Shown one piece after another: positions 24,412 through 31,424 of a stretch of DNA of 40,345 bases. A program made the translations under genes and the position numbers. The notes beneath the pieces are model-generated. The model worked only from the letters and a program-made list of their open reading frames with translations, did not search any database and was not told the DNA's origin. The number at the start of each line of letters is the position of its first letter. Position 1 is the stretch's first letter. The stretch comes from Candidatus Bathyarchaeota archaeon (GTDB lineage Archaea; Thermoproteota; Bathyarchaeia; Bathyarchaeales; Bathycorpusculaceae), in assembly GCA_937873375.1 (NCBI GenBank), contig CALMWK010000021.1:1-40345 (forward strand), in the 5' to 3' direction.

Positions 24412-24960
24412 CTACGGTTTCAGTTGGATGAAACGTTTTATGATTTCTGTGTTTCGCACTTCAGGATGAAACAGCACCCCAAAAAGGGGCTTTTTCTTGT
24501 GTTTTATGGCTTGGATGCACTGTGCAGATTCCGCTAAAACTTCAAACTCGGCTGAGGGGTCCACGGAGTATTTATGCAAAGAGTAAGCTCTAAAAGATTC
24601 AGAGAAGAGGGGGTTCTCCTTGCGCGTGGTTATCTGTGTCATGCCTATTTCTAAGCAACTGGTTAACTGGGAACCGAAGACGACGCCTATGGCTTGGATG
24701 CCTGCACAGATGCCCAAAACAGGTTTGTCCACTTCTTTGAGCCAGCTGAATTTTTCAGGTTGATTTGATGCAACATTGTCCTTTAGTGCTGTGCCTGAAA
24801 GAATAATCCTGCTACACTGGCTTAGGTTTTGGTTGCTTACTTCTGTGTAGTGTTTGACCCTGCAATCGTCTAACTCATTGGCAACTGCGACTATGGGCGA
24901 GACGAATTCAAAAAAGCCCAGCGAATTCACCTTGCTGTTCATGTCAACAACCAGAATCAT
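24412..24960 (-). CDS. Class I glutamine amidotransferase (GuaA-subunit-like)
   Basis: A 182-aa GATase domain. The triad is complete: Cys85 (VLGICAGIQAIG), His165 and Glu167 (GVLFHPEVRN). It is close in plan to the stand-alone amidotransferase subunit of archaeal GMP synthetase, which releases ammonia from glutamine for a partner ATP-PPase. The start ATG at 24960 overlaps the stop of the Dph6 gene (ATGA), so translation is coupled. That points to a partnership with Dph6, itself an ATP-PPase that needs ammonia, although an ordinary GMP synthetase subunit is not excluded. Confidence 0.82.
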   Translation of the reverse strand: MILVVDMNSKVNSLGFFEFVSPIVAVANELDDCRVKHYTEVSNQNLSQCSRIILSGTALKDNVASNQPEKFSWLKEVDKPVLGICAGIQAIGVVFGSQLTSCLEIGMTQITTRKENPLFSESFRAYSLHKYSVDPSAEFEVLAESAQCIQAIKHKKKPLFGVLFHPEVRNTEIIKRFIQLKP

Positions 24961-25637
24961 TTGGGCGCCAACCTTGCCTGATTGATTCGGAAAACTCCTG
25001 AGTTGCCTTTCGCTTCTGTGGTGTAGTTGAGGATTTCGATTTTCTTTTTGAATAAGGGTGCATCTAAGACTGTGGTTTCTATTTCGCCGCCTTCGCCTGA
25101 GGGGCTCAAACCAATCTCTTGCTGGAGCGCCACCAGTTTTCTTATGATGTCGGCGTTGATTTCTTTTCCCAGCCACTTTTCATCAAGAGGGTAAGCGAAA
25201 ACTCCTGAGATTATAACTTTGAAACCTGCCCCAAAAAGCTCTTCTAGAAGAGCTTTTTGGTTTTGTTTCCAGAGGGGATTGAAGCACCACAGGTCTAGGC
25301 GGTTGCAGATGCGTTGGACGCGTTCGGCTTGGTAGACGGATTCCACTGCACCCGTGACTACGCCTTCGATGTGGAAGGTTTGTTTTGCCTCAGCGATGGC
25401 TTCCTGCAAATCATCAAGCTCCGCCTCCTTTTTGCCTTCAGTCACCTTCGCAACCAAAGGCAGACCTAAGGCGTGAGCTTGAAGCGTGGTGATGTCAATA
25501 TTGGGGGTGTGGAACATGTAGCTCTCTGGGTTTTTGGAACGCAAAGTGATTAGACAGCTAACCTCTTCTTTCTCAGCTGCCTTGTGCAGGGCAAGCGTTG
25601 AGTCCTTGCCGCCTGAAAACAAAACCCCCAGCTTCAT
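24957..25637 (-). CDS. dph6: Diphthine-ammonia ligase (Dph6)
   Basis: A 226-aa ATP-PPase that makes the final amidation step of diphthamide on elongation factor 2. The PP-loop is 'GVLFSGGKDSTLALHKA' (about residues 4-20). Further family stretches are 'GVVTGAVESVYQAERVQRIC' and LDLWCFNPLWKQNQ. This is the single-domain archaeal form, without the C-terminal RidA-like domains of eukaryotic Dph6. Its stop overlaps the start of a glutamine amidotransferase gene. Firm family call. Confidence 0.88.
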   Translation of the reverse strand: MKLGVLFSGGKDSTLALHKAAEKEEVSCLITLRSKNPESYMFHTPNIDITTLQAHALGLPLVAKVTEGKKEAELDDLQEAIAEAKQTFHIEGVVTGAVESVYQAERVQRICNRLDLWCFNPLWKQNQKALLEELFGAGFKVIISGVFAYPLDEKWLGKEINADIIRKLVALQQEIGLSPSGEGGEIETTVLDAPLFKKKIEILNYTTEAKGNSGVFRINQARLAPK

Positions 25638-30072: not shown

Positions 30073-30723
30073 ATGTGTATGAAGGATCTGTGGCGCAAAC
30101 CTTACCATGTGGTTTTGGAAGTGGAGAATCGGCAGTGTGCGATAGTTAAGAAGTGCGCGGCTTTGGGGCTGCGGCACCTGAAGGTTGTGGATGTGCGCAG
30201 TTCGAATAGGGGTTCGGTGAAGCATCTGGTTGAGTTGGACCCTGCCGAGGTGAAGAAGGTTAAGAATCCTCCTGCTGAGTTGAAGGCAATTGTGTCGAAG
30301 GGTAAGGGCGATGGGAAGGCGTCTATTTGGTTGGAAAGTGAAGGCTGCGGAGTCTGCAACACCATACTGTCCAGTGATGCTTTCCTTGTATCAGGCAAAA
30401 GCATAGAGGACTTCACGATTATGTACAGCTTCATGGTGCCCAGTTTTGAAGCCTACCAGAAAATTGTTTTCGCTCTAGAAGGCATGGGCCTTAAGGTGAA
30501 TGTGCTTAAGATGGGCAAGTTTGAGCCTCATGAGGGTGTTTTGACAGAGAAGCAGGAGCGGATTTTCTGGTTGGCACTAAAGGGCGGCTTTTTTGAATAC
30601 CCAAGAAAAATTGACGCAACCGAACTTGCTGCAAAGTTGGGAATCAGTCCGTCTACGTTGTCGGAGATTACGCGGCGAGGCATGCGACGACTGCTGGAGC
30701 ACTACTTCAAAGGCGAAGCGTAG
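30073..30723 (+). CDS. Bat-type HTH transcriptional regulator
   Basis: A 216-aa protein. The C-terminal 'LTEKQERIFWLALKGGFFEY', then 'KIDATELAAKLGISPSTLSE', is the HTH-10 (bacterioopsin-activator) DNA-binding domain (about residues 162-216). The N-terminal part has two Cys in EGCGVCNTIL and an alpha/beta layout that may sense a ligand or redox state. It is divergent from glyA and overlaps the end of the convergent isomerase gene by 22 bp. ATG 30073 or 30079 is the start. Targets are unknown. Confidence 0.82.
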   Translation: MCMKDLWRKPYHVVLEVENRQCAIVKKCAALGLRHLKVVDVRSSNRGSVKHLVELDPAEVKKVKNPPAELKAIVSKGKGDGKASIWLESEGCGVCNTILSSDAFLVSGKSIEDFTIMYSFMVPSFEAYQKIVFALEGMGLKVNVLKMGKFEPHEGVLTEKQERIFWLALKGGFFEYPRKIDATELAAKLGISPSTLSEITRRGMRRLLEHYFKGEA

Positions 30724-31424
30724 GCGTTGAATAGTTTGCCTAAGCAGGCGTGAAAATCTGGTTTGAGAACTTTTAGGGCTGCCCACAGAGTGGCGGAGTT
30801 GCTGCTTATCACGGGCTTCTGCAGTTCCTCTTCTAAGTCTGGTATGGCTTCAAAGGTACAAAAGTTGGTGCAACTTATGAAGACCACGTCGGCGCTGGGA
30901 ACATCGACAGTTCTGGCTAGACTTGCAGCGTCGGTTGGGGTTAGCTGTCCGATTTTGAGGTTTTCTTTTATGTTCAAAGACGCCGTTTTTACTACCCCAA
31001 AGCCGTATGCTTTCAGGAAGTCCACTTCCCGTTTGTTTATTTCCGCTATGTAGGGCGTTGCCAACGCGATACGTTGCGCTTGAAGCTGTTCGAGAGCGTC
31101 TATGACTGCGGTGGTGGTTACGACTGCGGGGCATTTTGCGGTTTTGGTTAGTTTCTCGGCTATGGCGATGTCGTGTCCTAAGCCGTTGAGCATGCTTCCT
31201 GAGGTGCAGGCGTAAACCACTGCGTCAACTTGGGCATCTTTGAGTTGCCGTGCGGCTGTGGTTGCTTGTTTTTCCATGGCGGCGAGTTCTGAGGCTGTGA
31301 CGTTGTTGAGGGGCATTCTGGCGGTGTGCAGGGTTATGTTGGAGCCGTGGAGGATGTTGGAGAATTCGGTTTCGACGGTGGTGTTTGAGGAGGGCACGAT
31401 TACGCCTAGGCGTTGCATGTGCAT
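30702..31424 (-). CDS. Maleate isomerase / Asp-Glu racemase superfamily protein
   Basis: A 240-aa enzyme. 'RLGVIVPSSNTTVETEF' at the N terminus, Cys73 in VVYACTSGS and Cys185 in VFISCTNFCTFEAIPDLEEE are the two catalytic cysteine positions of maleate cis-trans isomerases and arylmalonate decarboxylases. The substrate may be maleate or another 2-carboxylate; the neighbours do not decide. The end overlaps the Bat-type gene by 22 bp. ATG 31424 or 31418 may be used. Confidence 0.85.
   Translation of the reverse strand: MHMQRLGVIVPSSNTTVETEFSNILHGSNITLHTARMPLNNVTASELAAMEKQATTAARQLKDAQVDAVVYACTSGSMLNGLGHDIAIAEKLTKTAKCPAVVTTTAVIDALEQLQAQRIALATPYIAEINKREVDFLKAYGFGVVKTASLNIKENLKIGQLTPTDAASLARTVDVPSADVVFISCTNFCTFEAIPDLEEELQKPVISSNSATLWAALKVLKPDFHACLGKLFNAYASPLK

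Follow-up and report, generated by a model that had tools for sequence, protein, structure and literature searches.

Archaea of several lineages encode, next to dph6, a class-I glutamine amidotransferase (GATase) that is a real, conserved partner of Dph6 and most likely an amidotransferase subunit. Diphthamide is a modified histidine on translation factor EF2, and Dph6 performs the finishing step in making it. We found the pair in a 40,345-nucleotide stretch of DNA from a Candidatus Bathyarchaeota archaeon (the window), where the first-pass annotation had proposed that the two proteins form a two-subunit, glutamine-dependent diphthamide synthetase. We consider that this is probably what the pair is. 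The dedicated pairing stood up, through linkage, gene fusions and mutual exclusion with a class-II glutaminase, but glutamine dependence cannot hold for every member, as the catalytic Cys has been lost at least four times.

In the window, dph6 (diphthine--ammonia ligase; 24957..25637, minus strand) encodes a 226-aa N-type ATP pyrophosphatase (ATP-PPase) and is followed by the partner gene (24412..24960, minus strand), whose 182-aa product matches PF00117 with 76 bits (cut-off 22.8). The end of dph6 reads GCG CCC AAA TGA and the amidotransferase begins ATG ATT CTG, the ATGA common to both (24957..24960, minus strand) being the overlap, and the sign of translational coupling, that had been pointed out from the sequence. 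This overlap is not a matter of chance, because it is seen again in 129 of 157 distinct family members (118 with ATGA, 11 with GTGA). A 254-aa ORF opening at GTG is an in-frame upstream extension of the amidotransferase; it is the ATG in the overlap that is conserved as start. The full Cys-His-Glu triad claimed for the window protein could be read directly from its codons on the minus strand: the nucleophile Cys85, in the motif LGICAG, lies at 24706..24708, and His165-Pro-Glu167 (HPE) at 24460..24468 (His165 24466-24468, Glu167 24460-24462). Elsewhere in the window, positions 30702-31424 encode a protein of the arylmalonate decarboxylase / Asp-Glu racemase family (Pfam Amdase, 126 bits), here in an archaeal genome.

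The window Dph6 scores 281 bits against TIGR03679, the diphthine--ammonia ligase equivalog (cut-off 197.3), and 226 bits against PF01902, its sole Pfam match, making it a stand-alone Dph6 and not one of the AsnB-DUF71 fusion type. It carries the PP-loop SGGKDS (residues 8-13; 25599..25616, minus strand) and the signature EGGEIE (residues 182-187; 25077..25094, minus strand), in which E187 corresponds to P. furiosus E188; the surrounding GEGGEIET is of the EGGE/D-x-E type rather than E-N-G-E-x-H. Passages of de Crecy-Lagard et al. (PMC3541065) assign the EGGExE signature to Dph6. The same genome encodes EF2 with the diphthamide His (VHRGPAQ), Dph2 and Dph5, and since all three are present the diphthamide pathway looks complete. 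A second EF-2-like protein (L181; G000:C61:32782-34875) lacks the diphthamide His loop. Because the genome encodes four DUF71 proteins, the pair might conceivably amidate a substrate other than EF2 diphthine while another DUF71 protein serves EF2. We regard this as improbable, however: the EGGExE signature occurs in the paired copy only, which is also the one with the high equivalog score, and in most Halobacteriota genomes no second strong Dph6 match accompanies the paired copy. In the other three (L039, L040 and L041), His replaces the Dph6 catalytic Glu, as in the B12-type group, and the signature rules them out as true Dph6. One of these three sits in a cobalamin-type locus.

To survey gene neighbourhoods we scanned public genomes with the amidotransferase alone as query, which retrieved 259 relatives. 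Among the best 80 of these 259, which were examined for neighbours, an EGGExE-type Dph6 lies immediately upstream in all 80; they come from Bathyarchaeota, Methanomicrobiales, Methanotrichaceae, Altiarchaeales, Theionarchaea, Thermoplasmata and several DPANN groups. We then assembled 157 distinct members, consisting of the best 80 plus samples from Halobacteriota and Nanoarchaeota, minus two generic GATases, L251 and L252, which scored 111-113 bits and have no Dph6 in the vicinity. These range over Bathyarchaeia, Methanomicrobiales, Methanothrix, Archaeoglobus-like genomes and DPANN, and 154 of the 157, including the divergent Archaeoglobus-like and DPANN ones, have Dph6 upstream on the same strand, immediately or very close by. 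Besides the members with a 4-nt overlap, there are 18 that adjoin dph6 in other ways, 4 that read as fusions (in one case across Ns) and 3 that lie within 0.4-2.5 kb on the same strand. The three exceptions are one unlinked within about 5 kb (L232), one with a dph6 fragment only (L199) and one that starts at a contig end (L250). Linkage of this extent, together with the retrieval of Dph6 in 80 of 80 cases by a GATase-only query, rules out a chance neighbourhood, and the pairing anticipated from the window is conserved across archaea.

In three Methanothrix genomes the two proteins form a single Dph6-linker-GATase polypeptide, the linker being about 30 aa long, and the whole-genome sequences of two of the three showed the fused frame once more. 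Other apparent fusions were discarded: in L117 the join passes through Ns, and the long open frames of six Halobacteriota GATases (L152, L155, L156, L162, L170 and L171) are in-frame upstream extensions that run over dph6 in another frame. At the contig-end ORF in Nanoarchaeota (L250:2-622), a Dph6-like C-terminal tail appears by eye to be joined to the amidotransferase, possibly a further fusion. In two partners that adjoin Dph6 (L239 and L240), HPE is preceded by inserts that are acidic or rich in serine and some 35 to 75 residues long.

The first-pass annotation had also likened the partner to the small subunit of archaeal GMP synthetase. Here the relatedness is real but membership is not. 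GuaA subunit A structures are the nearest solved relatives of the window amidotransferase, which lends some support to its being an ordinary GMP synthetase small subunit that sits beside dph6 by happenstance. Yet it scores 76.7 bits against the GuaA profile NF001975 (cut-off 198) and 71.9 bits against TIGR00888 (cut-off 172), it groups in our tree with its orthologues in a clade apart from GuaA (SH-aLRT 94), and some members of its family lack the Cys. Absence of any other GuaA from the genome had been named as the sign of an ordinary subunit; instead, a complete, fused GuaA of 516 aa (716 bits) is encoded elsewhere, and the remaining PF00117 matches resemble, by neighbourhood and motif, TrpG, CarA, PyrG, HisH and PurQ. 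Genome content thus already refutes the GMP synthetase reading, score and tree also speak against it, and we give it next to no credence.

Structure models are consistent with a dedicated partnership. A model of the amidotransferase (pLDDT 96.9) matches GuaA subunit A, and an AlphaFold2 model of a natural Methanothrix Dph6-GATase fusion reached a pLDDT of 90.9 and a pTM of 0.89 despite a 23-residue disordered linker, its domains matching PF0828/PH1257 (TM 0.94) and GuaA subunit A. The fusion model used an alignment of 25 rows, replacing an earlier large mixed alignment that had placed GATase rows on Dph6. For a two-domain chain, such a pTM implies that the predicted domains have a defined arrangement. 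Weak similarity to Pfam Peptidase_C26 raises the alternative of a merely co-transcribed gamma-glutamyl hydrolase or other small-molecule C26-type enzyme; the fusion to Dph6, the near-universal linkage to a single partner and the confident joint fold all argue against this, and we think it very improbable. Within Dph6, residue 117 (25287..25289, minus strand) is Trp in 124 of 155 paired proteins, in none of 38 solo ones and in none of 5 fused to AsnB. As its presence tracks that of the partner, Trp117 is a candidate interface residue, although paired Dph6 proteins without it are mostly from DPANN and phylogeny may account for part of the signal.

The partner is accessory to Dph6, and most archaeal Dph6 proteins are without one. 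Across 257 genomes of the window's class, 32 have the partner, a count set by a clear score gap (224 vs 80 bits), and 210 have Dph6 above its cut-off; the corresponding figures for 295 Halobacteriota genomes are 54 and 287. In two genomes with solo dph6 (L218 and L223) the next gene encodes the Lon-like ATPase that in relatives comes after the partner, from which it follows that the partner has been gained or lost cleanly in place.

Halobacteriota also have long Dph6 ORFs, 36 of them (636-763 aa) among the matches listed. In all five that were sampled, an AsnB-type region precedes Dph6 in the chain, and Pfam found Asn_synthase and Diphthami_syn_2 in both of the two searched, one of which also has a recognisable class-II GATase. 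The class-I partner was found in none of the 36 listed long-Dph6 genomes, with 54 partner genomes in the sample of 295. Two alternative ammonia suppliers would give just this pattern of mutual exclusion; the genomes are related, so it is not a statistical test. Two AsnB(class-II)-Dph6 fusions (L236, 2521-4428, minus strand; L238, 1522-3642, plus strand) lack the N-terminal catalytic Cys (MTGIVG and MHEIIG, respectively), and the GATase region of L236 no longer matches Pfam. Glutaminase decay apparently occurs in this unrelated fusion type as well.

The triad is kept in full by about 83% of class-I partners and is not conserved throughout the family. The Cys column holds G, D or S in 16 of the 92 relatives on the tree, which calls for at least four independent changes; four are needed, and well-supported branches force all four. 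Cys has become Gly in the f9 clade, which belongs to the window's own order, and in L121, Asp in Bathycorpusculum, and Ser in a Methanoculleus-type clade. HPE is invariant in all aligned members, Cys-less ones included, and the Cys-less genes keep their overlap with dph6 and evolve under purifying selection (dN/dS 0.11-0.36; 0.08-0.25 in Cys-containing pairs). Conservation extends to non-catalytic residues, SLxxxEF and GTALKD among them. The partner appears, in short, to have been converted repeatedly to a pseudoglutaminase, and since linkage and purifying selection outlast the loss of Cys, glutaminase activity is not its whole function. From these patterns there must be a further, non-glutaminase role, for which docking, activation or aid to the use of free ammonium are candidates.

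These losses, with linkage, HPE and purifying selection kept, and the conserved non-catalytic residues also favour a reading in which the partner serves in every lineage as a structural or regulatory subunit, acting in EF2 docking, in Dph6 activation or, in a Dph7-like role, in the release of Dph5, with glutamine hydrolysis a dispensable ancestral trait. However, most members retain the triad, the losses fall on few branches, and an unrelated class-II glutaminase has been recruited independently to Dph6; we judge this reading unlikely. Digesters or termite guts are the source of several Cys-less members, a hint, though no demonstration, of a link between Cys loss and ammonium in the habitat. 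A related and more ambitious proposal, which we put forward tentatively, is that many archaea amidate diphthine with an obligate enzyme of two subunits, the second of which is essential for something other than glutaminase activity (EF2 docking or Dph6 activation). Glutamine hydrolysis would then be a repeatedly lost add-on, shed perhaps in ammonium-rich habitats (digesters in the case of Methanoculleus, termite guts in that of Bathycorpusculum), leaving a conserved pseudoglutaminase.

Under the glutamine-dependent synthetase that we prefer, Dph6 would adenylate diphthine on EF2 while the partner, bound to Dph6, would hydrolyse glutamine through its triad and hand the ammonia to the Dph6 active site, much as the GATase subunit of GMP synthetase supplies its ATP-PPase. 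Lineages without the Cys would keep the subunit for a structural or activating role, their Dph6 probably using free ammonium. The simplest account is that the partner both supplies ammonia and physically supports Dph6; where free ammonium is ample, the Cys would become dispensable and the protein would stay. We count against glutamine dependence the repeated Cys losses, the many archaeal Dph6 proteins that have no partner, and the reported use of ammonium by Dph6 (PMC5354562).

Glutamine-dependent ATP-PPase ligases are known, and as far as we found the Dph6 version is apparently undescribed: the open-access literature that we searched yielded no description of a class-I GATase partner of Dph6. 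Passages of the 2012 Dph6 paper (PMC3541065) discuss AsnB and RidA fusions of Dph6 as possible ammonia sources, and a class-I partner is absent from those passages. Where Dph6 obtains its ammonia in the cell has been an open point since the enzyme was identified, earlier suggestions resting on these rare fusions; a widespread, dedicated class-I partner offers a direct, testable answer for many archaea. It would also correct the annotation that partner genes are likely to carry, GMP synthase subunit or generic amidotransferase, and several independent, natural pseudoglutaminases should be useful for separating the catalytic from the structural roles of such subunits.

The window Dph6 shares sequence, fold (TM 0.94), PP-loop and EGGExE signature with known Dph6 (TIGR03679; PF0828, PDB 3RK1), but the known enzyme is treated as a single, ammonium-using protein whereas this one has a dedicated amidotransferase subunit. 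The GATase subunit of two-subunit archaeal GMP synthetase (2A9V, 7YC6) has the same class-I fold as the partner (TM about 0.8) and the same triad layout, and likewise works with an N-type ATP-PPase; the Dph6 partner differs in having 22-30% identity to the solved structures, a score below the equivalog cut-off, a clade and an ATP-PPase of its own, and repeated loss of the Cys. Mammalian carbamoyl-phosphate synthetase I (CPS1) retains a Cys-less class-I GATase domain in an ammonia-using synthetase. It is thus a precedent for the Cys-less partners, but is a different ligase in a different pathway; it appears as a weak profile hit. In the AsnB-DUF71 fusion that passages of PMC3541065 describe in Methanohalophilus and relatives, as here, a glutaminase attached to Dph6 is the proposed ammonia source; that glutaminase, however, is an unrelated, Ntn-type class-II GATase lying N-terminally with an AsnB domain, and in the Halobacteriota sample it never shares a genome with the class-I partner. 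Eukaryotic Dph6 with C-terminal RidA domains, as presented in the same passages, likewise has an accessory domain proposed to supply ammonia, but RidA, unlike the class-I partner, is a deaminase unrelated to GATases.
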